The position numbers and the translations under genes are program-made. From contig NZ_AP021903.1 of the NCBI RefSeq assembly GCF_018326005.1, positions 3,257,501-3,321,500 on the forward strand: DNA of 64,000 nucleotides. Reading direction: 5' to 3'. Below are positions 1-14,009 of the stretch, in pieces. How positions within the stretch are numbered: position 1 is the stretch's first letter; each line of letters starts with the position of its first letter. The DNA is from Pseudomonas sp. Seg1 (lineage in GTDB: Bacteria > Pseudomonadota > Gammaproteobacteria > Pseudomonadales > Pseudomonadaceae). Below the pieces are notes generated by a model. The model had not been told where the DNA came from, ran no database searches, and saw only the letters and a program-made list of their open reading frames with translations.

Positions 1-750
1 GCAGAAGTCACCAAAAAGACTGGCAACTCCATTCGCGTATCGATAAAGCCCATGGCGTACCAACCCCATTTCGAGAAGCTCCGGATGAAAATTGAGCCTG
101 ATAGGCGTACCCGGGTAGGGCGCGAGTGGCAGGTACTAGGCGAAACTTTTTTCCAAAGCTTTAGCGCGGCGGAAATACCGCCAGCATCTCCTTGGGAGCA
201 CACTTATGAAGTGCTAAATGATCCCGCGAAGAGCCCAAAAATCCTGTGGCAATTCGGGAAGGAAATACAGGATTACGTCGCATCTCAGACAGACGCTTGG
301 CGCAATTTTCGTGTGACACGCATCCCAGATGTTGTGGACATCGAACTCTATCGCAACGACCGGTCATTGGTGAGCAATCTGGAAGGCGGCCAGCTATCCG
401 AAGGGCAGCGTAATGCGGCGATACTCCACATGCTGCTGGTGAAAGGCGACGGCCCAATTATCATCGATCAGCCAGAGGACGAAGTAGATGCAAGCTTCAT
501 CTACAAAGACTTGGTGCCGTTGCTTCGGCAGGCAAAATCCTGTCGCCAAATCATCTTGGCCACGCACAACGCCAACCTACCTGTGAATGCTGACGCCGAA
601 TTCGTTTTTGCACTTGAATCTGTCAACGGAAGAGGAGGGGTATTGGCACAAGAGGGTCTGGACAGGCGAGAGACCGCCTTAGCTGTGCTGGACATCATGG
701 AGGGGTCAGAGGAGGCGTTCAGGCGTCGTTTTGACAAGTACCACTTCTAA
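1..750 (+). CDS. AAA/ABC-type ATPase, C-terminal part (TrlF-like), 5' end outside window
   Basis: The reading frame is open from base 1, so the gene begins left of the window; the internal ATG at 52 is probably not the start. The visible part is the C-terminal half of an ABC/SMC-like ATPase: a signature-like stretch LSEGQRNAAILHML, a Walker B and D-loop region IIIDQPEDEVDASF, and a switch histidine in ATHNANLP. This arrangement is typical of AAA ATPases in defence loci, including the TrlF family, which carry an N-terminal PHP or other domain. That N-terminal half cannot be seen, so the function is open. It lies next to other defence-type genes and upstream of a recombinase, which supports a role in a defence island. 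The ATPase call is firm; the TrlF assignment is tentative. Confidence 0.7.
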   Translation, partial: AEVTKKTGNSIRVSIKPMAYQPHFEKLRMKIEPDRRTRVGREWQVLGETFFQSFSAAEIPPASPWEHTYEVLNDPAKSPKILWQFGKEIQDYVASQTDAWRNFRVTRIPDVVDIELYRNDRSLVSNLEGGQLSEGQRNAAILHMLLVKGDGPIIIDQPEDEVDASFIYKDLVPLLRQAKSCRQIILATHNANLPVNADAEFVFALESVNGRGGVLAQEGLDRRETALAVLDIMEGSEEAFRRRFDKYHF

Positions 751-871
751 TCAAACCGTCTCGCCGATCCATGTTTTGCGGTGCTGTGCACTCGTGATTT
801 TTGGCCGCGCGTGTAGACGCGGCACTGAGGTTCTCCCAGGCCTAGAGAGTGGCAATTGCAACCTTAAGAGG

Positions 872-2629
872 CTAACCCTCAAGGAATGCAATCACCTCAT
901 CAAGTGAGCATGCCCAGCGCAGCGTACCCACGGAAATTGAGAGTGACTGCTCATCGCTCGTATAGACCGCGAAGGGGGTGCAAACAACACCGACGATTCT
1001 CTCGTATTTGGTGAAATCGAAGTTGTCACCCACTGGGTTTTCTGAAAGTCGATTCACGATATTTACCCAGGTGTTCACACCGTTGTTTACGGTCGACGCA
1101 GCGTTACGGATAACAGAATGGACTCCTTGATCGTACTCCCGAGTGTACGGGATGCTTTTGCAGGACACGAGGAGGAGGGTGCCTTCAAACGAGCCAATTG
1201 CATCTATATCGGTCACGGCTTGGCCAGCGACTTTGAGCGTCCGTTGCCTAAGCTCGCGAATGTTGTCGTCGGCCCAGCGGGTTCGATCAATCCTTTGTTG
1301 AACGACATCTTCGAATTTTGTTGCCCGCTCGTTGGCGACTTTGCCTTGTGTCTTCGGGATGTTGAACCACGCCAAAAAACCCATAGAGGCCGCCCACATG
1401 TCGACACACATGTAGTCATTCGTTTTTCTGGCAGGAGCGCCATGAGCGGCAGGCCAAACTTCTCCCAAAAAGCTCAAGCAGCTAGAGCTGAATGCTTCGA
1501 AGCTTTCCGGCGCCTGGAACTGAGGTAGGTGCTGACGTACGTCATCGCAGACGGCGTCATACACTTTCTCCCCGAGCATGTTCCACTCGTTGAACGGCAT
1601 GATGAAATAGCCGAGCTCCATAGTCCGCAGGATCGAGTAGCGGCTTCGCTGTAAGTAGCGTCCAGCGATCAAAAGTACCAAGAGGCAAAGCGAGGCGTTG
1701 GGCTCAATGGCTTGTTTTTCCAGTGCTGGCGCTCGATGCAGTTCAAAGATTCTCGCGAGATCAAGAGTGCTTGGGCGGAACCGAATCAAAACCTTTCCTG
1801 CGCTTCCGTAAGCAGCGGCTCGTGGGTGTCCTTTCAGGAACTCTTGGGGCGCAACCGCGATCTCGTCGCTTAATAGGCCCCAATACGCTTGTGCAAAATT
1901 CACCTCTGTATTGATGATCTTGTCAGCGGACTCATCATGGGCCAAGCCTGCCTGGTTCAAGGCGGCACCATGAAATGTACGACTATGGGAATCATGGCGC
2001 TGGTCATATATCCGAACCGCATTCTCCAATACCGGATCTGAAACGCGACTCGGGAGTCTCGTTGGTGCTGGGCTCGCCATCGGTCTGAAGGCGAGCGCTC
2101 CTTTTGTAAGCCTTCCGGGGGCGCGGTTACCTTCAGTTGGGAAGGTAAAGCGGTATTCCTTACTCGCTAACTTGAACCCAACCTGCAAGTCGTAAATGAT
2201 GTTGATGAAGGCTATGAAGCGAGCAATATGCCTCAGTGTGCTTTCGTTGACAGGAAAGACAAAACCTTTGCTGCCGTACCCAGCTGACTCCAGCTTGACA
2301 CTACGGTTTGCGTAGACCTCAGCTAATGCACGTGCATTAGGGCAGGTTGAAATCAAGTTTCCGGCGAAAACAGTGTTGGGTGTGCGTCGAAAGTAGTACA
2401 TCCAGCGCATTGCTGAATAGGCGTTCAGATCGCGTGAATATGCCTCTTCCATGGCCTGGATCGCTTGAGTGAAGAACTCACCGCTCTCACGGGCGGTCAG
2501 CGTGCCCGCAGCTTTTGCAGATTGAAAGAATGGGAATTGCTTAATCCTGTCTTCAAGCTCAATTATAGAGCGAGTAATATCAGCCAAGAATTTTGGGTTG
2601 GTTGGGGCATGTTGAAGCAGGGTGCTCAT
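872..2629 (-). CDS. Uncharacterised protein with a C-terminal PD-(D/E)XK-like nuclease motif
   Basis: A 585-residue protein that I do not recognise as a named family. Residues 1-400 show no familiar motif. Near the C-terminus the order E440 (in FEDVVQ), D474/D476 (in TDIDAIG), then a hydrophobic strand ending in C490-K491 (LLLVSCKS) matches the acid, acid, (x)K layout of restriction-endonuclease-like nucleases. The start ATG is at 2629 with AAGGA about 11 bases upstream. It is the second gene of a leftward pair, 76 bases downstream of the HEPN-like gene with the G10 tract, so both are probably on one transcript. The sequence shows the motif; nuclease activity is an inference. It could be the effector, or a DNA-targeting partner, of a two-gene defence unit. 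Confidence 0.65.
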   Translation of the reverse strand: MSTLLQHAPTNPKFLADITRSIIELEDRIKQFPFFQSAKAAGTLTARESGEFFTQAIQAMEEAYSRDLNAYSAMRWMYYFRRTPNTVFAGNLISTCPNARALAEVYANRSVKLESAGYGSKGFVFPVNESTLRHIARFIAFINIIYDLQVGFKLASKEYRFTFPTEGNRAPGRLTKGALAFRPMASPAPTRLPSRVSDPVLENAVRIYDQRHDSHSRTFHGAALNQAGLAHDESADKIINTEVNFAQAYWGLLSDEIAVAPQEFLKGHPRAAAYGSAGKVLIRFRPSTLDLARIFELHRAPALEKQAIEPNASLCLLVLLIAGRYLQRSRYSILRTMELGYFIMPFNEWNMLGEKVYDAVCDDVRQHLPQFQAPESFEAFSSSCLSFLGEVWPAAHGAPARKTNDYMCVDMWAASMGFLAWFNIPKTQGKVANERATKFEDVVQQRIDRTRWADDNIRELRQRTLKVAGQAVTDIDAIGSFEGTLLLVSCKSIPYTREYDQGVHSVIRNAASTVNNGVNTWVNIVNRLSENPVGDNFDFTKYERIVGVVCTPFAVYTSDEQSLSISVGTLRWACSLDEVIAFLEG

Positions 2630-2705
2630 AAAAACTCTGTCCTTAGAAAACCTTTAAGCCGTTGAAGTGTTGAAGCTGATGTGCCTTGCACTTGGCTGTT
2701 CTGAA

Positions 2706-4019
2706 TCACATGCTTTTTTTCAGCGTTTCATACTCTTCGCTCGACATGTAGTCGTGTTCAATCATGTGATCTAGCATTGCGCGAACATAGCCGTCAAGCT
2801 CTCTAAAAAGATTCTCCCGTTCACTTCTGCTTTTGATCAGTTGCTCGAGCCGTGCCCCTATGTGAACAATATTGGTTCTGAGCCCAACCTCTTGCTTCGT
2901 CGTCTCGTCTTTCTTTCCAGTGAGCTCTCGAAATCTGTCCATTAATCGTTCGTGCTCCTTGGGACAGTTGGTCACATATTTTGAGACCACCTTTTTTATA
3001 TCCTGAAATTTCATAAAATCATCTGGACATGCTAGGAACTCAATCAAGCTTAACGCTTGTACGAATTTTGACGTGGCTGATTGGGTCTGAAGCATTTGAG
3101 AATAGAGCGAAAGCCCATGAGCAGCGATCTTGCCGACCTCTCCGTACTGTGGGAACCGATCCCACTCCGGTTGACGTAAGTCGAGGCCAAGACCTTTCGT
3201 AGTTACATGTGTGAAGGCTGCGCCGGCCAGCAAAACGGAGTTCATCGCATCCGATTTCACCAAAAGCGCTGCCGACATCATTGAATTGGACATTAATTGT
3301 CCAGCATTTGCTGGCTTGGTTTCGCATGCAAGGTGTTCCAGCTTGCAGTTTTGGTAGTTGATTACGTCAAAACACAGACTGTCAGTTATTTCGGATATTC
3401 TGGCTATCATTTCCAGATGAGCGCTGTGACTGCCACGCTTAAGTTCCTCCCAAGAAAACTTTAGAGGTATCACAAGCAAAGGATGTTTATCCAGCTGTCC
3501 TAAACGCACATTGGATGCGCTTATCTGAGAATATGCAACCTTCGTTAACTGCTTGTTGTCAACGTGTATGCTCGCTAGATTTAATCTTCCTTGTGGATAG
3601 ATCATAACTCCATATGGGAGAAATACTGAGCGATCAGTAACTAATCGAGAGAGTGGGAGTATTGCTAGATGGCAGTCTTCTTGGAAATATTTTTTGTATG
3701 CTTTACAAAGATCACCTTGGTCAATGCTTCTATAGTTTTTTTCGTCATACCAGTGTTGATGAATTTCAGGGCAAGGGGTTTCCACCCCTATAGACTCGTT
3801 CGTTTCGGGAGGCGTATCTAGAGGCTCAGAAACACCAAGCCAGCATTCTAAGCAGTGCCGCTCGCAACCATTTTTGTAGTTGGTGGGTCTATAGAAGTAA
3901 TGATCACGCCCCCCCCCCGCATAATCTAATATGCTGTAGGCTCTGCTGCAGTCAGAGCAGATTCTAACAAGTTTCGTCTCGTAGGTGCTTAGTGTTAAGC
4001 CATCAATGCTAAGTTTCAA
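2706..4019 (-). CDS. Candidate phase-variable protein with cysteine pairs and a HEPN-like C-terminus
   Basis: A 437-residue protein. The N-terminus has cysteine pairs (C21/C24; C52, C56, C59) that look like a zinc-binding module. The C-terminus, from about residue 320, is helical and contains R381-TNIV-H386, the Rx4-6H signature of HEPN ribonucleases, in a setting like Apea-type HEPN domains. No in-frame ATG precedes residue 139; the likely start is TTG at 4019, with GAGAAG upstream. Codons 34-37 contain a run of ten G on the coding strand (3909-3918). The current length is in frame; eleven G would give an immediate TGA, and nine G would give TAG about 24 codons later. It lies upstream of the PD-(D/E)XK-like gene. 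An RNase or toxin role is an inference from the motif. Confidence 0.6.
   Translation of the reverse strand: MKLSIDGLTLSTYETKLVRICSDCSRAYSILDYAGGGRDHYFYRPTNYKNGCERHCLECWLGVSEPLDTPPETNESIGVETPCPEIHQHWYDEKNYRSIDQGDLCKAYKKYFQEDCHLAILPLSRLVTDRSVFLPYGVMIYPQGRLNLASIHVDNKQLTKVAYSQISASNVRLGQLDKHPLLVIPLKFSWEELKRGSHSAHLEMIARISEITDSLCFDVINYQNCKLEHLACETKPANAGQLMSNSMMSAALLVKSDAMNSVLLAGAAFTHVTTKGLGLDLRQPEWDRFPQYGEVGKIAAHGLSLYSQMLQTQSATSKFVQALSLIEFLACPDDFMKFQDIKKVVSKYVTNCPKEHERLMDRFRELTGKKDETTKQEVGLRTNIVHIGARLEQLIKSRSERENLFRELDGYVRAMLDHMIEHDYMSSEEYETLKKSM
3909..3918 (-). repeat. G10 homopolymer inside a coding region (candidate phase-variation tract)
   Basis: The + strand has ten consecutive C, read as ten G in codons 34-37 of the gene at 2706-4019. 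It is the longest homopolymer I noticed in the window. Loss or gain of one base shifts the frame to an early stop, as worked out by reading both shifted frames. Confidence 0.85.
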
Positions 4020-4305
4020 GTTGTTCTTCTCGATTAATTCACAGTGAGGTCACTGTTTCCTTCAGGGGACTGGTCTGCCGCGATTTTCTTCTGACTCTTG
4101 CGGGAAAGCATGCCGGATTCGGTGCGCGATCTCGAGACTAATGTTGCCACTAAGAATTTGAGTCGGAAAATTAATTGATTGCCCCCCGTTACAGATGATG
4201 GTGCTAGAGATAGCGTCTCGCCTCAGTCTGTGGCATATAGCCAGTAACATTGCGCTCGGCCAGGAAGCCAAGAGGCCAACAGACGCCAAGCTTAGGGAGA
4301 AGTGG

Positions 4306-6393
4306 ATGTACCTTTCAGCGCTCTCGATCCGGAATTTCCGCCAGTTTGGCGATCTGACTCCAGGCTTTTTCATTCACTTCAATGAGGGCGTCACTGCGCT
4401 TGTAGGGGAGAATGATGCCGGCAAGACAGCGGTAATCGACGCCATCCGGCATGTCCTGCAGACCCGTGACTGCGACTTTCTGCGATTGGAGCTCGAAGAC
4501 TTCCACGTCACGAGCAACGGCGAGCCTGCGACCGACATCACCTTGATTTGCACACTGTCGGGGCTATCCTCGTTAGAGCTCGGTGCCTTTGCTGAGTACG
4601 TAACATTCTCTCGCGGGGAAGGGGTGCTCCATGTGCACTGGTCAGCACGTCGACTCGCAATTCCGACAGCATCTCGTCGCTGGGTAGACATCCAAGTTCG
4701 TTGTGGCGAGCGCGGAGAAGGGCCCTTACTGGACGTCGGTGTGCGCCAGTTGCTGGCGACCGCTTACTTGAAGCCTTTGCGTGATGCTGAGCGGGAGATG
4801 TCACCGGGCCGTAACTCTCGATTGTCTCAAGTTCTGTCCAGCTTTCCGGGGATTGAAACCGGTGAGTCCTATGTCGATACCGCACCGCCGGCGTCAACAG
4901 CTGAGGCCTCTGATCTGAGTATTGCCGGCATGGGCGATTACATGCGTGAACTCGTTAGAGGACATGAAGCCATCAAGGTCGCCCAGGCGACGATCAATGA
5001 CCGATACCTGGAGCCTCTCTCACTGGCTGGGCACCCGCTTCATAGCCATCTTGGCTTCGGCAATTCCGAAAGTGAGACCGCAAAGCTCAAGCTAATCCTT
5101 GAGCGGCTCGAATTGGGGCTGCTGGACAAGAGTTCAGGTCTTGCGAAGGGCAGTTATGGCCTGGGTTCAAACAATCTGCTGTTCATGGCCTGCGAGCTCC
5201 TCCTGCTTGGGAAGGAGCCGGACGGGCTGCCGCTACTGTTGATCGAAGAGCCTGAAGCGCATCTTCACCCGCAGCGCCAGCTCAGACTGATGGAGTTTCT
5301 GGTGAGCGCATCCCAGCCTGTAGCCCAGGCGCAGAGGCAACAGCAAGAGCCAGCGCAGACACGCCCCGTGCAGGTGATTCTTACCACGCACAGCCCCAAC
5401 CTGAGCTCTAAGATTGCTCTGGAAAACCTGGTACTCATTCAAGGCCAGCGCGCGTTCTCCATGGCGCAGGAGCGCACCAAGCTCTCCGCTGATGACTATC
5501 GCTTCCTAAGCCGTTTTCTGGATGCCACAAAAGCCAGTCTGTTCTTTGCGAAGGGGCTGCTCATCGTAGAAGGGGATGCCGAGGCGATACTTATGCCGGC
5601 GTTGGCTCGGCTGCTAGAACGCGACCTGACAAAGCACGGCGTGTCGATCGTCAACGTGGGTGGAGTTGGCTTGCGTCGCTATGCGCACATCATGCAGCGC
5701 GCTGATATCTCCGAAGGCGAAATCCAGATCCCAACCGCCTGCATCACCGATATGGATGTAATGCCTGATTGCGCGCCGGCAATCATGGGACTGAACCCGA
5801 ACAAGCTCACGGCTAGCGGCAAACGGGCCCCTCGTCGATGGCGGATGTTGAGCGACTTTGGTGCTACAGATGCGGAACGAGCGCGGAGGCTAGCGGCTCA
5901 TAGAGAAAAACGTTCACGTGGTGATGGTCAGAATGTAAAAACCTTCGTGGCCACTCATTGGACGCTCGAATACGATCTGGCTGTCGAGGGACTCATGGAA
6001 TGGGTGCATCGCGCTGCCACGTTGGCCGTACATGACGTGAAGCTGAATGAGCGCAAACTGACACGCGAGAAAGTCCTTGAGAAGGCGAGCAAGGCGCTGA
6101 CGGTACTCAAGGATCGCTATCCCACCGATCAAGAGCGAGCCACTGAGATTTACCGTCTTGTGGATTCCGGCTCCAAGTCGATCACTGCTCAACACTTGGT
6201 CGACCTGCTGCAAATGGCATTTGATGAGGGTGAACTCGACCAGGCGAGCTTGCGTGCAGCGCTACCGATATACCTGGTTGAAGCGATAGAGTTTGCAACT
6301 GGAAGTCCAATTCTTTCTCAGACACCAGAACCACCTGCCGAGCCCGCCACTACGGCCCCTCCCCAGACAACTGAAGCGGGGGAATTTGTGTAA
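4306..6393 (+). CDS. OLD-family ATP-dependent nuclease (GajA-like)
   Basis: A 695-residue protein. The N-terminal ABC-type ATPase has Walker A GENDAGKT (residues 34-41), a Walker B LLIEEPEAHLHP (about 311-322) and a switch histidine in TTHSPN (360-365). A TOPRIM nuclease domain follows, with E422-GDAE-426 and D482-M-D484 as metal ligands. This is the layout of OLD nucleases; those adjacent to a UvrD-like helicase are class 2 OLD proteins, exemplified by GajA of the Gabija anti-phage system. The frame is open from 4195, but ATG 4306 has AGGGAGA eight bases upstream and begins the typical LSIRNFRQF strand. The stop codon overlaps the helicase start by one base, so translation is coupled. It is longer than the classical GajA (about 580 residues), with extra sequence at the C-terminus. 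Confidence 0.85.
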   Translation: MYLSALSIRNFRQFGDLTPGFFIHFNEGVTALVGENDAGKTAVIDAIRHVLQTRDCDFLRLELEDFHVTSNGEPATDITLICTLSGLSSLELGAFAEYVTFSRGEGVLHVHWSARRLAIPTASRRWVDIQVRCGERGEGPLLDVGVRQLLATAYLKPLRDAEREMSPGRNSRLSQVLSSFPGIETGESYVDTAPPASTAEASDLSIAGMGDYMRELVRGHEAIKVAQATINDRYLEPLSLAGHPLHSHLGFGNSESETAKLKLILERLELGLLDKSSGLAKGSYGLGSNNLLFMACELLLLGKEPDGLPLLLIEEPEAHLHPQRQLRLMEFLVSASQPVAQAQRQQQEPAQTRPVQVILTTHSPNLSSKIALENLVLIQGQRAFSMAQERTKLSADDYRFLSRFLDATKASLFFAKGLLIVEGDAEAILMPALARLLERDLTKHGVSIVNVGGVGLRRYAHIMQRADISEGEIQIPTACITDMDVMPDCAPAIMGLNPNKLTASGKRAPRRWRMLSDFGATDAERARRLAAHREKRSRGDGQNVKTFVATHWTLEYDLAVEGLMEWVHRAATLAVHDVKLNERKLTREKVLEKASKALTVLKDRYPTDQERATEIYRLVDSGSKSITAQHLVDLLQMAFDEGELDQASLRAALPIYLVEAIEFATGSPILSQTPEPPAEPATTAPPQTTEAGEFV

Positions 6394-8375
6394 TGCGGCT
6401 CCAAGATCTTGTTCCGCCAGTCACGGATGCAGACATCGAATGGGTGAGCGCCCTTATGTCGCTGCGCGACCTGGATGAGCGACGGAGGGAGTTTCTCAAG
6501 CGCCTCGATACGCTCGATGTGGCGGCATGCCCGGGTAGCGGCAAGACCACCTTGATAGTTGCCAAGCTCGCCATACTTGGGCGCCACTGGCGTAGTCGAA
6601 CGCAGGGGATCTGCGTGCTGTCGCACACCAATGCGGCACGTGAGGAAATCGAGAGCCGGCTGGGCGCCACAGAGGTTGGCCAGAGACTACTGCGATACCC
6701 GCACTTCATCGACACCATCCATGGTTTTGTCATGCGGTTTCTCGCGTCGCCTTGGCTGCGCTCGAATGGCCACCCGTTGGTTATGATTGATGACGAGGCG
6801 ACTGGACGTGCCAGGGGAAGGGCGTTGGGTGGTGAGCGAAGAAATATGGAGATCTTCCTTGGCAACAAGGACAAAACGCTTGCTGATCTTCGTCTTCAAA
6901 CCGCTGACTTTTCTGATCCGCTTGGGGGCGCGCACTACATTTGTTCACCTAAAGCTCCGTCACACGGAAAGCTAGGCAGAGCCATGGGCGCTGCTGCGTC
7001 GGAAGGCTACTTTTGCTACGACGAGGTATTCACGCTCGGCCAGGCCATGATCGAGCAAGAACCGAATATTGCTCAGTCGCTGCAAGCTCGGTTCCCCTGC
7101 GTGCTCGTCGACGAGATGCAAGACACCGATGTGAAGCAGAGTCGCCTCTTGAACCACGTCTTTCCGCGCGATACTGCAAATACAGTCGTGGTGAGGGTGG
7201 GGGATCCCAATCAGCAGATCTTTGAGGGCGACGGCGAGTCCGATGGGGCCTTCCCTCATGGAGAGACGATTGATATCTCCACGAGCTTCCGATTCAACCA
7301 GGCCATTGCCTCTCAGGCGAACAGCTTTGCGGTAGCTCCAATTACCGGGGGGTTGATAGGTCGGGGCAGAACGGGAGTTGGCTGTCCAAACACAATATTT
7401 GTCTTCCCTGACGACAATGCAAGGGGTGTCCTCGGCGCATTTGCGAATTTGGTGTCCCGGTGTCTACCCGTTGCGGAGCGCAAGGATGGGGTGCATGCAA
7501 TCGGCGCAGTGCATCGGCTGAAGGACTACAAGATCGAGCAATATCCAAAGGCCCTGGAGCATTATTGGAGCGCCTACCGCTCTGATGCTAGTACCTCTAG
7601 ATACGCTCCTAAGACGTTCGTTGAAGGTGTTCGTAGGGCAAGGGCACACCTAGCCAATACCGGTCATGCTCACGAAAGCGTCGAGATGATTGCCAAGTGT
7701 CTGCTTCATCTCGCCGAACGTAGTGGGTTAAGAAAACCTGTCCAGATCAGGACGAGGCTTCACCGCTATATAGAGCGAAGCTTGGCGTCTAACACGAACC
7801 TTCTGAAAGCCTACCAACGATGTATCTACCTCTATTTGTTCTACTCGCATCCGCTAAGAGAGGAGCGGTGGGTTCATACGCATGTCGTGCTGCTTCGACG
7901 CCTGATCGCAGAACTGCATCCTGGGGAGGCCATATCAAACAGCTCCGAGGTAGAAGCCTACTTGGCGTGGACAGAACCAGGGGAAACGGTCGATGTCGAG
8001 TCCGAGGTACCACATAAAGCCATCAACACCTACCGATCCGAGGAGGGCGGAGACGACCCCGTCGACGTTCAGCTGGCGTCCATGCACTCTGTAAAGGGCA
8101 AGACTCATACGGCGACCCTGATTGTGGAAACATTCAGTGGACAGCGCTTCCTGGAAATGATGCTGCCCTGGCTGGAGGGTAAGCCTCTGGTGAAGAAAGA
8201 GCACAAAGTGACTTACCGGAAGAACAGGATGCTCATGTACGTAGGTATGACTAGGCCAACGCATCTGCTGTGCCTGGCTATTCGAAGCAGCGCGCTGGGC
8301 GAGAGGGAGGCGAGAGCTGTGCGAAAGGCAGCGCTGGAGGCGCAGGGGTGGGTGATCAATGAGCTCGATATGTAA
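6393..8375 (+). CDS. UvrD/PcrA-like superfamily 1 helicase (GajB-like)
   Basis: A 660-residue helicase that begins in a TAATG overlap with the OLD nuclease gene. Visible SF1 motifs are Walker A ACPGSGKTT (residues 45-53), the Ia-like SHTNAAREEI, motif II VLVDEMQDTD (237-246), motif III GDPNQQIF (270-277), motif V SMHSVKGKTHTATL near 570 and motif VI MYVGMTRPTHLL near 620. In Gabija systems GajB joins GajA to sense nucleotide depletion and degrade phage DNA; a similar joint role is inferred here. It is about 160 residues longer than the classical GajB, with most of the added sequence between motifs III and V (residues about 290-560). The gene is complete, and motif order is normal. Confidence 0.85.
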   Translation: MRLQDLVPPVTDADIEWVSALMSLRDLDERRREFLKRLDTLDVAACPGSGKTTLIVAKLAILGRHWRSRTQGICVLSHTNAAREEIESRLGATEVGQRLLRYPHFIDTIHGFVMRFLASPWLRSNGHPLVMIDDEATGRARGRALGGERRNMEIFLGNKDKTLADLRLQTADFSDPLGGAHYICSPKAPSHGKLGRAMGAAASEGYFCYDEVFTLGQAMIEQEPNIAQSLQARFPCVLVDEMQDTDVKQSRLLNHVFPRDTANTVVVRVGDPNQQIFEGDGESDGAFPHGETIDISTSFRFNQAIASQANSFAVAPITGGLIGRGRTGVGCPNTIFVFPDDNARGVLGAFANLVSRCLPVAERKDGVHAIGAVHRLKDYKIEQYPKALEHYWSAYRSDASTSRYAPKTFVEGVRRARAHLANTGHAHESVEMIAKCLLHLAERSGLRKPVQIRTRLHRYIERSLASNTNLLKAYQRCIYLYLFYSHPLREERWVHTHVVLLRRLIAELHPGEAISNSSEVEAYLAWTEPGETVDVESEVPHKAINTYRSEEGGDDPVDVQLASMHSVKGKTHTATLIVETFSGQRFLEMMLPWLEGKPLVKKEHKVTYRKNRMLMYVGMTRPTHLLCLAIRSSALGEREARAVRKAALEAQGWVINELDM

Positions 8376-8578
8376 GCGTAAGCTATCGGCAGATAGCCGA
8401 AGCGGTTTCCAAAGACCTGGGTGGAGCATCTTTCTCCAAGACTGAAGACATTTCTGCACTTGAAGAGCGAGTGATTGGACTGGCTCTAAAAAATTTTCAG
8501 CTCTCATCCCAACGGAAAATTGTTCTGCCCCTCACTCGTACGATCTTACTGAGGCTGCGCTCAACCTCGGTCACGTAA
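8363..8578 (+). pseudogene. Possible coding remnant between helicase and recombinase
   Basis: A 71-codon open frame without ATG, beginning just after a TGA at 8360-8362 and ending with TAA at 8576-8578. The translation includes YRQIAEAVSKDLGGASF and ISALEERVIGLALKNF, which looks like natural helical protein and is not a shadow of a known gene over most of its length. It overlaps the helicase 3' end by 13 bases and the recombinase 3' end by 18. It may be the tail of a gene lost by deletion at the island boundary. The family is not recognised. Confidence 0.25.
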
Positions 8579-9859
8579 GCCCAAGCGCTTGACCGAGTGC
8601 GCACGCTCTTGATCATGTGAGTGGTAGTACGTGTTCTGAGTAGTACTGAGATTGCTATGACGCAGATCGACCTGCAGGTCTTTGGCATTCCGCAAGGGCG
8701 CGTCGAAGGTCGCAGAGGTATGGCGTAGCCAGTGCAGAGAAGCGACCTTTAAGCTTTCCATCTCGTGCACCGCACGACCCTCGATACGCATACTTTCAAG
8801 AGCCTTGTCGAAGACTACCTGGAGGAGGGCGCGTACCTGTCGATCCGACAGACCAGAACGTCCTCTGAGGGTCTTGATCAAAGGAGTGGTCTCGCCGATC
8901 TCAGGAAGTTCGGGCAGACCCAAGAACCGACAATAGCGCTTTAAATAGAGATTGATATATTCATCCCTGACGGCAATCTTTCCGATCTTGTTGCCTTTGC
9001 CTACGGCGTGATACCACCAGTTGCCCTCAGGGTCTTGGCGGAAGTCCCCCATAGAGGGCTTCCAGTTTTGTCGCCCGACAACATCAGACACGCGTAGATA
9101 CATGGAAAACAATGTTGAAAGTATAAACAGTGTACGCTCATGCCGAGCAGGTTCGGACTCCGCCAGCTTTTCAGCCGTTTCAAGCACGTAGTTCCATTGC
9201 AGCGGCGTCAATGCACGCGTAACACCCTCGTCTTGAACATCATCGGTATAGCGACCTGACTTCTTGATCATTCGGAAGGGGTTTGCCGCCGCATAACCAT
9301 CTTCAACCATAAATTCGAAAAAGCGACTGCAAATCGAGAAAACTTGATTTATGGTGCTGTTGGTTGCGCTGTATTTATTCTCGGTTATTCCTTGTTCTTG
9401 ATCCTCGGAACCAATCAGCGGCTTCGACGATTTAATATTGAAAGGACGCCAGTTAGGATTAGGAATAACAGGGTCTACAAGCGCACTCTGCGCATCATTA
9501 TTATTCAAAAAACGGCTACGAGTCACAGGCCCGATCCAGTCTCGAGGTGGATTACGGCAAAAAATCAAATAATCCTGGGCGTCCTGACGCTTAAGTTGAT
9601 TCAGCGGCTTCTGGCTAATCATCAATGACCACAGCAGCAGCCGCTCAATATGAATGCGATACGAGCTGAAGGTCTGAGCATTATCGGAAAAAGCCCGCAG
9701 GAACGAGCGCACGGCCAGGTAGCCGCGCGGAGCCTCTAGCGCATGGGAAAATGAGGCAAGGTAAGCTTTGACGCATGGTGTAGTAGGCCCACTGCAACTG
9801 AAATCCTGATCAAGGAACGACTCGTATGTATTGAATAAGGGCTTCGGCGAGCGGGACAT
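8561..9859 (-). CDS. Tyrosine recombinase/integrase
   Basis: A 432-residue site-specific recombinase. The N-terminal half holds a SAM-like core-binding region (about 50-190). The catalytic half shows R256 (MYLRVSD), K288 (VGKGNK), H376-x-x-R379 (HWLRHTS), H401 (LRHSN) and a nucleophile at Y411 or Y412 (TQNTYYH). All expected residues are present, so the enzyme is probably active. It is transcribed leftward from ATG 9859, with no partner recombinase or excisionase gene next to it. It separates the defence genes from a gene-free stretch that carries a degenerate repeat array on the upstream side of its promoter, so it most likely moves, or once moved, the island on its left. I cannot assign it to a named integrase subfamily. 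Confidence 0.88.
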   Translation of the reverse strand: MSRSPKPLFNTYESFLDQDFSCSGPTTPCVKAYLASFSHALEAPRGYLAVRSFLRAFSDNAQTFSSYRIHIERLLLWSLMISQKPLNQLKRQDAQDYLIFCRNPPRDWIGPVTRSRFLNNNDAQSALVDPVIPNPNWRPFNIKSSKPLIGSEDQEQGITENKYSATNSTINQVFSICSRFFEFMVEDGYAAANPFRMIKKSGRYTDDVQDEGVTRALTPLQWNYVLETAEKLAESEPARHERTLFILSTLFSMYLRVSDVVGRQNWKPSMGDFRQDPEGNWWYHAVGKGNKIGKIAVRDEYINLYLKRYCRFLGLPELPEIGETTPLIKTLRGRSGLSDRQVRALLQVVFDKALESMRIEGRAVHEMESLKVASLHWLRHTSATFDAPLRNAKDLQVDLRHSNLSTTQNTYYHSHDQERAHSVKRLGLRDRG

Positions 9860-11059
9860 TCATGACCACCAGATACGTTAGTTAGTGCCATTAAGAGACT
9901 TCCAGTTATGACAGTAATCGGAAGTTGGAGACCTATTATCCATAATCAGTCTTCCTCTCATACAACTTTGGCTTAAGAAAGCCCGATGGTATCTCGCGCG
10001 CATCTATCGTGCAACTATGACTCATTACCTCCCAAACCTTCTGGGCTTATCTCAAGATTTCGTTAAATGGACAGTACTTGTCTCCCAATTATTCTTCAGG
10101 TATCGAGCCGGAGGCACTGATGTACGTATGAGCCCGCCATGCTGTCTCGTCATTACTGCGCGCACCTCCTGGTTATTCCTCGTAATTGCGTTAAAAAATT
10201 CGTTTTAGTCTCATAATTCCGTTCCCCGTCGTTGGCACGGGTAAATATCGTGGAAACTTCACACTCACGCCGATACCCGGAATTTCTGGGTGGCGGGTAG
10301 CCAGGGGTGTAAGTCCACTGGTGATATCTCACGATTTCGTGCTGGGAAGCCAAAACCATAGCTCTAGGATGAGTCTAGTGCAGAGCAGTTCTCAGCCCAG
10401 CTTTTCCAAAAAATATTTTAGGAAAACTCGCGTCAGGCTTGATCTTCAACAATCCGAGCGGTGGATTGGCGCGGAATTCTGCCTATGCCGCCAGAGCGTT
10501 CGGGCCCAGAAGTGTCTCGTCAAATCTTCACCAAAAGCGCTGCGGGTTATGTCTCGCGATTTCTTCGAAATATAGCTAACTGATTGTTTTTATTGGAATT
10601 CATCTTAATTGCGCAAACGTGGATACGCGACGTTGTCTCACGATTGATTGATAGACTCTGAGCTAGTAACAAAATGATGGAATAGGCTGAAACCCTCGAA
10701 AATAAAGGCTTACAGGCCAACTGCCGGCTACACGGTAGTCTCATAATTACGTTGCTACAGTTGGTGAGGCCTGCACTACATTTTTCGTAATGCCCAGTAA
10801 AATCAATCTGTTAAGCGCTTTTCGAAGCAACGTCTCTTTATTTCGCGATTGCCTCACGTTGAGAGATTGGACGTCAGAAACGGATTTGTCGAATCAGTGG
10901 CTTAGGCAGCTCATGAACATCTATGACATGACCTGTCGTTTAACATAATATACATTACACGTAACAAGATGTTTCAGGTTCACGCGGACTGCCTACGAGA
11001 TTTCAGTCTCCAGCACAGCTTCAAAAGCCCTGTCCTTTGGTGCTTCAAATTCAGCGTGG
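9860..11059. other. Gene-free, AT-richer stretch between recombinase and cupin gene
   Basis: About 1.2 kb with no convincing gene; open frames here are short and have poor coding character. Base composition is clearly more AT-rich than the core genes. It holds the repeat array at 10050-10753 and a small inverted repeat just upstream of the recombinase start (ACTTCC at 9898-9903, GGAAGT at 9920-9925). I see no tRNA gene. Confidence 0.7.
10050..10753 (+). repeat. Array of about ten degenerate direct repeats, RTCTCRYRATTNCGTT
   Basis: Copies, all in the same orientation, start near 10050 (TCTCAAGATTTCGTT), 10081, 10145, 10178 (CCTCGTAATTGCGTT), 10209 (TCTCATAATTCCGTT), 10327 (TCTCACGATTTCGTG), 10515, 10552 (TCTCGCGATTTCTTC), 10636 and 10739 (TCTCATAATTACGTT). 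Those at 10081, 10145 and 10515 are weaker. Several are spaced by 31-37 bases, others by 64-188. They lie 190-900 bases upstream of the recombinase start codon, so they could be recombinase or regulator binding sites. Confidence 0.65.
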
Positions 11060-11587
11060 TCAATCATCATCCCGCGTCAGCTTTTCTATCAGCATTCGAT
11101 GTTGAGGAAATTGTGCTGTGAGTTTTTGGCGATTCCCCATTTTCATGTCGGCGAAATCAAAACCCGGTGAAACCGCTTCACTGATCAAACCGAAACCGTT
11201 TGAGCCATGCAAAAGCCTCGAAGCTTTCCACAGGCCACCCGGTACATGTAATTGCAGATGTTGTCCTGACAAAATATCGCTGCCCATGACTAGGGTCTGC
11301 AATGAGCCGTCAGCCAGGATCAGGCTGTACTCGATGGCGTCGCCTAAGTGGAAAAAATGCAGGATGTCGGACTGGTTGAAATGGAACTGGCCGACCGGTG
11401 ATTGCTCGGTCAGCAGATAGTAGATCGACGTCATCAGGTAACGTGGACCGCCGGCGGTTGTAAGCATGTCGCGGTGATCGGATTGATAGGTTCGGCGAAA
11501 GTAGCCGCCTTCAACGTGAGGTTCCAGGCCCAGCGTATCAATAACATCTGTTGCAGTTGTTTTGCGCTCGACCATGGCCTGCTCCAT
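11060..11587 (-). CDS. Cupin_5 (DUF985) family protein
   Basis: A 175-residue single-domain protein. The pattern LEPHVEGGYFRRTYQS, then TSIYYLLTEQSPVGQFHF, LHFFHLGDAIEYSLI and GLISEAVSPGFDFADM is the cupin_5/DUF985 fold, a small beta-barrel of unknown biochemical role. Two starts are possible, 11587 (MEQAM) and 11575 (MVERK); I give the longer one. It is transcribed leftward, downstream of the MmyB-type regulator, from which it is separated by about 170 bases with an inverted repeat. Whether it belongs with the neighbouring metabolite genes is unknown; some cupin_5 proteins bind sugar-like or small organic ligands, but nothing here fixes the ligand. Confidence 0.85.
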   Translation of the reverse strand: MEQAMVERKTTATDVIDTLGLEPHVEGGYFRRTYQSDHRDMLTTAGGPRYLMTSIYYLLTEQSPVGQFHFNQSDILHFFHLGDAIEYSLILADGSLQTLVMGSDILSGQHLQLHVPGGLWKASRLLHGSNGFGLISEAVSPGFDFADMKMGNRQKLTAQFPQHRMLIEKLTRDDD

Positions 11588-11689
11588 TGGTTTGACTCTG
11601 GTTTTTCGTTAGCTCTATTAAACGAGCATTTAGTGTAGTTAAATATTTGCCTCCTGCAGTTATAACTTGAACTTGAGAACAAAGTGCCC

Positions 11690-11729
11690 GCAAAAGTGCA
11701 TTGTAAAGACATAAAACTTGCACTTTTGC
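11690..11729. terminator. Inverted repeat between the regulator and cupin genes
   Basis: GCAAAAGTGCA at 11690-11700 pairs with TGCACTTTTGC at 11719-11729 around an 18-base loop. An outer pair, CTCCTGCA (11651-11658) and TGCAGGAG (11727-11734), overlaps it. There is no T-run, so it may be a terminator of the regulator gene or an operator for the cupin gene. Confidence 0.4.
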
Positions 11730-11759
11730 AGGAGCGCTTACACTAATAAAACTTAACAG

Positions 11760-12632
11760 TTATGAGGTCTCAAATTGATCTTGCTTAACTTCTACAACAC
11801 CCTCCTCCAGCCATTTCTCAAACTTGAACAGGGCGACCCCTTGCTCCATTGGCGCGTAGTACACAAGGCGCAGATGCCGTTCGACATCGATTGTCAGCGT
11901 GGTGTGTTCCAGAGTGACGTCGCCAAATGAATCGATCGTCAGGTGCCGAATACCCTGACAGGGACCATGAATATCCTGCCGAGACCACCAGCCTTTGAAT
12001 TCCGCACTGACACTCTCAAGTTCACGCACCAGTGAAGCAACATCACTTTCATTTGAGGCGTGAACATAATCCCGGCGGAAACTGGAGAGCATCTGGATTG
12101 CCTGGTCGTCCCAAGGCTGGAAAAGAGATTTCGTGCGCTCGTCGGTAAACAACATCGATAAAAAGTTGCGTTGCTCAGGTGTTTTCTCGGAGAACTTGAA
12201 AATCTTGTCAGCTGCGGGGTTCCAGGCCAGGACATCCCAGCGAAGGTTCAGCACATAAGCGGGTCGCAACGGCAGATCCGCCATCAGGCGATGAACGATC
12301 TGGGGAACGACGCACCAGGTTTTGCCCTCCTCGGCCGGCGGTCGCTGGTGTGAAAGCAGATAGAGATGGCGACGCTCGACCGCATCGAGCTTGAGGACCC
12401 GGCACAGATTGTCCAGGAAGGCAGGTGACACACCAATATCGCGTCCCTGTTCGAGCCATGTGTACCAAGACAATCCGACACCCGCCAGTGCCGCTACTTC
12501 TTCTCGACGCAGCCCGGGTGTACGGCGTCTGCCAGTCGGGGGTAACCCTGCTTCTGCAAGAGATATGCGCTCTCGGCGGCTGCGTAAAAACTCAGCCAGG
12601 TCCTGTCGAGTGCGCTCAAGATTCCTTTCCAT
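11760..12632 (-). CDS. XRE-type regulator with MmyB-like ligand-binding domain
   Basis: A 290-residue transcription factor. Residues 1-80 form a helix-turn-helix with the motif TPGLRREEVAALAGVGLSWYTWLEQGR, characteristic of the MmyB/YlbG-like group; the rest (LPLRPAYVLNLRWDVLAWNPAADKIF onwards) is the MmyB ligand-binding domain. The open frame runs upstream to 13079, but that part is antisense to the divergent synthase gene and begins with low-complexity shadow sequence. ATG 12632 has AGGAG ten bases upstream and starts the conserved domain. It is divergent from the aminolevulinate synthase gene, so it is the likely regulator of that operon. A 15-bp palindrome lies just before its start codon and suggests autoregulation. 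Confidence 0.88.
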   Translation of the reverse strand: MERNLERTRQDLAEFLRSRRERISLAEAGLPPTGRRRTPGLRREEVAALAGVGLSWYTWLEQGRDIGVSPAFLDNLCRVLKLDAVERRHLYLLSHQRPPAEEGKTWCVVPQIVHRLMADLPLRPAYVLNLRWDVLAWNPAADKIFKFSEKTPEQRNFLSMLFTDERTKSLFQPWDDQAIQMLSSFRRDYVHASNESDVASLVRELESVSAEFKGWWSRQDIHGPCQGIRHLTIDSFGDVTLEHTTLTIDVERHLRLVYYAPMEQGVALFKFEKWLEEGVVEVKQDQFETS

Positions 12633-12638
12633 TATCCA

Positions 12639-12653
12639 GTTACTCCTAGTAAC
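12639..12653. promoter_or_regulatory. Palindromic candidate operator, GTTACT-N3-AGTAAC
   Basis: Perfect 6-bp arms with the 3-base spacer CCT sit 6 bases upstream of the regulator start codon and overlap its ribosome-binding site. The position in the divergent 144-base region fits autoregulation and control of the synthase operon. There is no experimental support. Confidence 0.45.
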
Positions 12654-12776
12654 ACTATAAACAGTAGCCATTGTACTAACTATTAGGTTGCTAAAGAATC
12701 CGCTCGGCCCGGAAACAAGCGGCCAATTGCATCCGCGAAGGATTATCGCGGGATTTGATGCCAAGGAGTAGAAAGA

Positions 12777-14009
12777 ATGTATCAAGCACTGCTGCAGGAT
12801 AAGCTCGAGGCCTTGCATACCTCTGGCCAATACCGGCAATTTACAACGCTTAACAGGATTTGCGGCCGTTATCCTCTGGCTCATCTCACTGACAATAATG
12901 ACAGCGAAGTTGTAGTTTGGTGCAGCAACGATTATCTCGGCATGTCCCAGCATCAGGATGTCAGAGCGGCGATGCATCATGCCGTTGACAGCTACGGTGC
13001 CGGTGCCGGTGGATCGCGAAATATCGGTGGTACGCATAATCTTTTCAGCCGTCTTGAAGCGAGCATTGCCGACTGGCATGGCAAAGAGGCTGCGCTGGTT
13101 TTCCCGACCGGTTTTGGCTCAAACGATGCCACGCTTCAATGTCTGCTCCGGCAACTCCCTGACTGCGTGGTGTTCAGTGATGAACTGAATCACGCGTCCA
13201 TCGTCAATGGAATTCGCGCAGTCACCGCAGAACGTCAGGTGTTTCGTCACAACGACGTCGCTCATCTGGAAGAGCTGCTTTCGCGGTATCCGCTCGATCG
13301 TCCGAAAATCGTCGTGTTCGAATCGATCTACTCAATGGACGGCGACCGCGCGCCCATTGCCGAAATCGCAGCCGTTGCGAAAAAGCACAATGCACTGACC
13401 TACCTGGATGAAGTGCATGCGGTCGGCATGTATGGCCCTCGAGGCGCAGGATTGGCGGCTGAACTGGGTGTCGAAGACCAGTTGGACATCATTCAGGGCA
13501 CCATGGCCAAAGCCATCGGCATCATCGGTGGCTACGTAGCGTCAAGCCGGACGATGATCGATGCCATTCGCTCGCTCTGTACCGGTTTCATATTCACCAC
13601 GGCCCTGCCACCCGCCGTGGTCGCGGGTTGCATTGCGAGCGTCGAACACCTCAAGGCCAGCAACACCGAGCGAGAGGCACTGCACGCCAAAACCCGCTAC
13701 CTGCGCGATCAATTGCAGATGCGCGGTATCCCGGTCATGCCCTGCTCGACCACGCACGTACTGCCAGTGCTGATCGGTCAAGGCGCGTTGTGCAAGGCGG
13801 CTGCCGAACGTCTGCTGTATTCGCACTCCGTGTATTTGCAGCCGATCAATTCGCCTTCCGTACCGATTGGTACAGAGCGCTTTCGAGTGAACGTGACGCC
13901 GAATCACTCTGAGGCGCAGATCGAACATTTGGCTGCCGCGCTGCAAGAGACATTCCTGCATTTCAATATTCCGCTGGCGCCCGGCTTCGAACTCAGAGGT
14001 GTCGCGTGA
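12777..14009 (+). CDS. 5-aminolevulinate synthase (alpha-oxoamine synthase family)
   Basis: A 410-residue PLP enzyme that should condense glycine with succinyl-CoA to 5-aminolevulinate. Signature segments are [24 protein letters not shown] (about 75-86), SDELNHASI with H139, [10 protein letters not shown], the cofactor-binding D211-EVH-AVG, and the Schiff-base lysine K245 in QGTMAKAIG. These match true aminolevulinate synthases more closely than KBL, BioF or serine palmitoyltransferase. ATG 12777 has AAGGAG nine bases upstream. Pseudomonads make haem precursors from glutamyl-tRNA, so this enzyme is not needed for haem. It leads an operon with acyltransferase, oxidoreductase and amidotransferase genes, pointing to a special metabolite built from aminolevulinate or an analogue. 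Confidence 0.85.

Follow-up and report, generated by a model that had tools for sequence, protein, structure and literature searches.

The DNA considered here, referred to as the window, is a stretch of 64,000 nt from Pseudomonas sp. Seg1 (NZ_AP021903.1, positions 3,257,501–3,321,500), and coordinates are those of the window unless another sequence is named. It contains an intact gene whose product has a HEPN-like C-terminus and whose early coding region holds a run of ten G (the G10 tract), followed downstream by a gene for a predicted nuclease and flanked on the other side by a divergent Gabija system (Table 1). A preliminary description of this DNA had placed the ten G in codons 34–37 of a gene that is ON in the window, and this is confirmed by the coordinates of the open reading frame (ORF) and of the tract.

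Table 1. Features of the HEPN-like locus and its surroundings in the window
Feature	Position	Strand	Basis or remark
HEPN-like gene, 437 codons, TTG start, intact, ON with ten G	2706..4019	minus	ORF reading
G10 tract, from codon 34 (third base) through codon 37	3909..3918	minus	C10 on the plus strand
TGA met with 11 G (codon 39 of that reading)	3904..3906	minus	In-silico frame reading; place derived
TAG met with 9 G (codon 57 of that reading)	3848..3850	minus	In-silico frame reading; place derived
C21-x2-C24, first cysteine pair of predicted zinc knuckle	3948..3959	minus	C in 48/53 rows at both columns, other 5 gapped
C52-x3-C56-x2-C59, second half of predicted zinc knuckle	3843..3866	minus	C in 50/53 rows per column, other 3 gapped
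Rx4H motif RTNIVH, R381–H386	2862..2879	minus	R, T and H each in 53/53 rows of alignment A3
C-terminal helical domain, residues 293–429, range aligned to HEPN toxin chain 7ae6	2733..3143	minus	Structure comparison
Conserved leader 5′ of HEPN-like gene; in frame and open in L002, out of frame in the window	4020..4152	minus	
Downstream gene, 585 codons, predicted PD-(D/E)XK-type nuclease, model aligns to Upx	872..2629	minus	Same order in L002
Candidate nuclease motif TDID-x12-SCKS, T473–S492, of the 585-codon gene	1154..1213	minus	
Two-gene cassette common to P. fluorescens FW300-N2E3, 89 % DNA identity	862..4152	minus	Window 1–14000 versus L002
GajA of Gabija system, divergent neighbour	4195..6393	plus	PADLOC E 1.9e-187, profile match from residue 38
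GajB of same Gabija system	6393..8375	plus	PADLOC E 1e-154

Frame readings made in silico indicate that the gene is ON with 7, 10 or 13 G, that 8 and 11 G lead to a stop at codons 38 and 39, respectively, and that 9 and 12 G do so at codons 57 and 58. A long homopolymer early in the coding region, with forms one G longer or shorter both ending translation, is what is looked for in a contingency locus, and it is present here. Of the shifted frames described previously, the TGA immediately after the tract in the 11-G form stands, but the TAG of the 9-G form lies about 20 codons on, rather than 24. With 11 G, an ATG directly before the tract, 17 bases short of the new TGA, comes into frame with the remaining 405 codons; no ribosome-binding site is seen before this ATG. 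Comparison with the closest relative, from P. fluorescens FW300-N2E3 (locus L002), gives a ratio of non-synonymous to synonymous substitution rates (dN/dS) of 0.21 (NG86) or 0.28 (YN00), values that average the whole divergence from L002 and are blind to the period since the tract arose; judged by this comparison, the gene is under purifying selection.

The tract falls in a loop between two groups of N-terminal cysteines, which presumably bind zinc as a knuckle. All five (C21, C24, C52, C56 and C59) are present and conserved in an alignment of 53 proteins, and residues 31–50 of the loop are modelled with low confidence (predicted local distance difference test, pLDDT, 57–61). With regard to the start of the gene, the homologues at L002 and L040 likewise begin at TTG. 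The leader of L002 (L002:7867-8000) is open from an ATG and in frame with the gene (466 amino acids), and a one-base difference breaks this frame in the window; since the leader is conserved and L002 has the in-frame ATG, the true start codon of the family may be another than the one read here.

A protein search with the product of the gene yielded 64 proteins including the query, 53 of which make up alignment A3, those excluded being mostly partial, fused or redundant. In alignments of 27 and 53 proteins the tract site is variable, mostly reading E or G, then any residue, then S or N, and the GGGR of the window is the sole GGG at this site among the 53. Within the first 90 residues GGG occurs in two of the 64 proteins, that of the window and the distant P0051 (36 % identity), where it is known at the protein level and stands slightly further on, between the cysteines. 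At the DNA level, L002 has TCGGAGAGTAGT where the window has GCGGGGGGGGGGCGT, the window being 3 bases longer. There is no tract at L040 (65 % identity), which has a shorter loop, nor at L041 (51 % identity), even though the latter has one codon more than L002 and L040. The longest G run in seven other family genes is 4 to 6. A scan of genome contigs returned one relative (L002), whole-genome protein searches gave matches in 1/298, 1/392 and 3/398 genomes (the own genome counted each time, and the sets overlapping), and a search with the A3 profile across the phylum matched in 3/398; no tract was present at any locus found in these three ways. No near copy was found in viral contigs, phages, plasmids or E. 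coli, and tblastn against plasmids returned three distant matches.

An additional loop codon unique to the window copy was considered and dropped, as L041 and P0019 are also one residue longer than the 436-residue relatives; residue 38 of the window protein is alone in its A3 column (1/53). On the aligned sequences, it is the G run, and not the length of the loop, that distinguishes the window copy. One further protein, P0123, comprises 195 residues (194/195 identical), is annotated from an internal ATG (codon 243) and lies on a 25,561-base contig. Taken as an OFF allele of another strain it proves nothing, as P0124, which is identical to the end of the tract-free L002, starts at the equivalent ATG. 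P0123 hints at another strain and may have a broken or unseen 5′ part, but a contig end or the choice of start explains it equally well, the internal ATG being a possible fallback start for a gene caller.

Apart from the single run of ten, no G run in the window exceeds six, and there are 199 of four, 39 of five and five of six. Runs of at least nine G occur at five places in the whole genome of 6.63 Mb (lengths 10, 10, 9, 9 and 15), of which the tract in the HEPN-like gene is the only one inside an ORF; no ORF of at least 130 amino acids (at least 150 for the first locus) covers the other four, and longer stop-to-stop frames are open across some of these. The genome also holds 11 exact G8 runs. 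As five of the 11 fall in open frames of more than 300 amino acids, some of which may not be genes, G8 inside coding frames is not unusual in this genome.

All five runs of at least nine G sit on the minus strand of the record, with none on the plus strand. The second G10 (G000:C1:3241295-3241304) lies about 16 kb before the window in no listed ORF, roughly 135 bases beyond the end of a same-strand ORF of 270 codons. The G15 run (G000:C1:4908439-4908453; L017:8440-8454) is a candidate variable site between ORFs, approximately 380 bases before an ORF that looks by eye like a recombinase, with a 341-codon ORF nearby.

The assignment of the C-terminal domain rests on motif, structure model and conservation. 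HEPN domains are described as having an Rx4-6H motif ahead of the last helix, a polar residue after the R and, in many families, an acidic residue in helix 2 (PMC3710099). In the window protein, R381 and H386 are invariant not only in A3 but also in a separate comparison of eight sequences, which includes four distant ones. The polar residue after R is T in 53/53, rather than the usual N, D or H, and is H in the Phaeobacter member. The motif sits in helix 380–387 of the structure model and is followed by a long helix (398–421), which fits placement at the end of HEPN helix 3 ahead of helix 4. A conserved acidic residue, E327 (53/53), lies in helix 315–330, D replacing it in two distant members; the Ex3[KR] form is not present around it. 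HEPN entries head the VIA structure-comparison list, although the fold match is modest. Searches with HMMER gave no HEPN model match for the gene product in Pfam, PADLOC or NCBIfam, Foldseek alone returned nothing significant for the C-terminal domain, and the HEPN_Apea model PF18739 has no match in the genome of the window and one in 95 genomes. Thus the HEPN-like C-terminus proposed earlier is favoured by an invariant motif and, modestly, by the fold comparison, whilst a significant profile or Foldseek match is lacking; a profile search without HEPN relation had been named in advance as refuting the proposal, and HMMER gave this outcome for all three model collections, but structure comparison did not.

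The earlier wording 'defence gene' gains support from the neighbourhood, with defence neighbours at 5/6 loci on genome contigs. In the window the HEPN-like gene stands back to back with the Gabija system. L041 has a type IV retron nearby, represented by its reverse transcriptase and 2TM protein, and L040 a PDC-S06 ATPase (both by PADLOC). The distant HEPN-like ORF at L045:6873-7940 lies inside a type I restriction operon, where it has a four-base overlap with the end of hsdS and precedes a KAP ATPase (PDC-S20) and hsdR, whilst at L046 HamB lies about 3 kb away, the only component of Hachiman seen there. The remaining locus, L002, adjoins a UvrD-like helicase that matches GajB models (E 2.6e-24), and was counted as ambiguous. 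Plasmid relatives, in Phaeobacter (amid conjugation genes) and Sphaerospermopsis, have no adjoining defence gene in the annotation, which alone was consulted for them. PADLOC was applied to hand-picked ORFs (two from L002, three from L040, three from L041, five from L045, three from L046 and six from the window), and in a small control none of ten proteins taken at two control loci in the same genome matched. Independently of the tract, the family is a candidate for an uncatalogued defence gene, falling outside those models of PADLOC, Pfam and NCBIfam that were tried. Beside Gabija lies a tyrosine-recombinase-like gene (8561–9859, minus; XerC model E 7.1e-11, under the curated cut-off), possibly an island integrase. 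The start of the window truncates an AAA ATPase-like gene on the plus strand, whose remaining C-terminal part (1–750) matches the PADLOC Ppl model at its end (E 6.4e-20).

The downstream gene forms, with the HEPN-like gene, a cassette that is apparently mobile. In the comparison with L002, the flanks compared show no match. Residues T473, D474, D476, S489, C490, K491 and S492 of its product, within what we take to be a PD-(D/E)XK motif, are invariant in the 46 rows of alignment A4, which consists of 45 of 51 partner homologues plus that of the window (those excluded being mostly partial, fused or redundant). Its dN/dS against L002 is 0.20 (NG86) or 0.27 (YN00). The model of the product aligns with the Upx defence protein (PDB 9wuf) at a root-mean-square deviation of 8.6 over 370 residues, but there is no sequence match to Upx among the matches listed, and Upx residues 1–728 are without counterpart in the partner. 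That this gene is an obligate partner was rejected, as each of the two occurs without the other: the HEPN-like gene is present in G505 and G462, where the 585-codon gene has no match, and G177 shows the converse. Matching contig sizes nonetheless suggest that the pair shares contigs in P0002/P0067 and P0003/P0069.

The best explanation for these features, which we favour with moderate confidence, is that the gene encodes a HEPN-type ribonuclease (RNase) effector with a zinc-knuckle module, carried by a defence-island cassette, and that the tract acts as a recent de facto ON/OFF switch. We infer both the RNase activity and the defence function, as well as slippage at the tract and any benefit that switching may bring. 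In the simplest history, a variable loop would have become ten G in the window lineage by point changes and, on balance, three added bases, as by slippage and with gain as the presumed direction. Single G would then be gained or lost frequently through slipped-strand mispairing. With ten G the effector would be made, and loss or gain of one G would leave cells making only 56 or 38 residues, respectively; a reverse slip would restore the gene, resulting in a population of effector-positive and effector-negative cells. Were the HEPN RNase to kill or arrest infected cells, its cost would be avoided by an OFF minority, whilst the ON majority would limit phage. The 11-G phase is perhaps not fully OFF, as re-initiation at the ATG before the tract could give a form without the first cysteine pair. 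The tract is best read as a site that arose recently and is probably hypermutable, within a functioning defence gene. A more far-reaching version seems unlikely, namely that a poly(G) contingency switch has been gained in this lineage by an undescribed HEPN-RNase defence family, so that production of a predicted suicidal effector becomes stochastic, with 9-G and 11-G OFF phases that differ. Should the tract vary, a HEPN-type immune effector in Pseudomonas would be subject to a poly(G) switch, and it could be measured directly how frequently a costly defence gene goes off and which phage pressure accompanies this.

Several observations weigh against a strong claim of a switch. The tract is missing from all three relatives in which the site is readable as DNA (L002, L040 and L041), and is therefore not a family trait; the preliminary description had named an invariable ten G among relatives as refuting the switch, whereas these relatives have no such run at all. 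Dinucleotide shuffles of the whole window attain the observed count of G8 matches in 23/100 cases, and a window-scaled first-order Markov model expects approximately 7.7 runs of at least ten G per genome, with three observed. In favour of more than chance, the first-order Markov expectation within the HEPN-like gene itself, which has 45 % GC, is 6.7e-5 G10 runs. The chance tests are thus mixed overall, the whole-window shuffles giving no significance. It is possible, if doubtful, that the G run arose by simple drift in a tolerant loop and is without function, perhaps as a stage in the loss of the gene. Such a neutral accident is consistent with these tests, with the low modelling confidence of the loop between the cysteine groups, and with a site that differs in both sequence and length across relatives; against it stand a gene that is still intact and in frame and the low dN/dS, the latter with the averaging already mentioned.

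At the other extreme, selection might keep the tract as an evolved contingency locus, the switching of a costly RNase effector paying under changing phage pressure. The first 9 % of the gene contains the tract, which is in frame and is the sole G run longer than six in the window, and both the defence neighbours and the precedents of pglX and of a 5′ poly(G) frameshift site reported in P. putida flhB (PMC2831843) fit with this. Its absence in the relatives read, however, makes maintenance of this kind rather unlikely. Retention in related lineages is not a strict requirement but, on the sequences available, its lack bars the label of an established switch, and a recent de facto switch is more likely than an evolved, maintained one. 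In mutation-accumulation lines of hypermutator P. aeruginosa and Salmonella, most indels are reported to lie in homopolymeric tracts, with purifying selection proposed by the authors against those within genes (PMC8115180).

That the C-terminus is some other helical bundle with a chance RxxxxH, and not a HEPN RNase, is improbable. The profile and Foldseek results would agree with this, as would a second RxxxxH further on in several members, but chance does not readily account for an R and H retained in every row of A3 and in four distant members, in a helix before a long last helix as described for HEPN (PMC3710099), nor for HEPN entries topping the VIA list. Least probable is a sequencing or assembly error, with a true length that differs or a shorter tract: its length rests on one assembly and homopolymers are a weak point of long-read assemblies, but the stated length keeps the frame open, which chance would achieve one time in three.

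The favoured reading of a HEPN-type effector under a recent de facto switch has counterparts among known systems. With HEPN RNases such as Csm6, HEPN-MNT toxins and PrrC/RloC, amongst others, the window protein shares the Rx4H motif with its polar residue, the position of this motif before the last helix, and the acidic residue in an earlier helix; it differs in having no HEPN match in Pfam, PADLOC or NCBIfam, and in the zinc-knuckle N-terminus of the longer members. For the tract, the titles listed by a literature search included the BREX/Pgl precedent but no HEPN gene with a poly(G) run. The Pgl system, which is classed as type 2 BREX (PMC9122589), includes pglX, and in Streptomyces coelicolor contraction and expansion of a G homopolymer in the coding region of this gene are reported to accompany loss of Pgl, the Pgl+ wild type having eight G and strains that have lost Pgl having seven (PMC4365076). 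Common to both cases is a G homopolymer within the coding region of a phage-defence gene; pglX, however, is a methyltransferase gene with G8 and a reported switching of 1e-2 to 1e-4, whereas the present gene is HEPN-like, has G10 and is known from sequence alone. Closer in taxonomic terms is flhB of P. putida, which belongs to the same genus and similarly has a poly(G) near the start of its coding region (PMC2831843), but is a flagellar rather than a defence gene.
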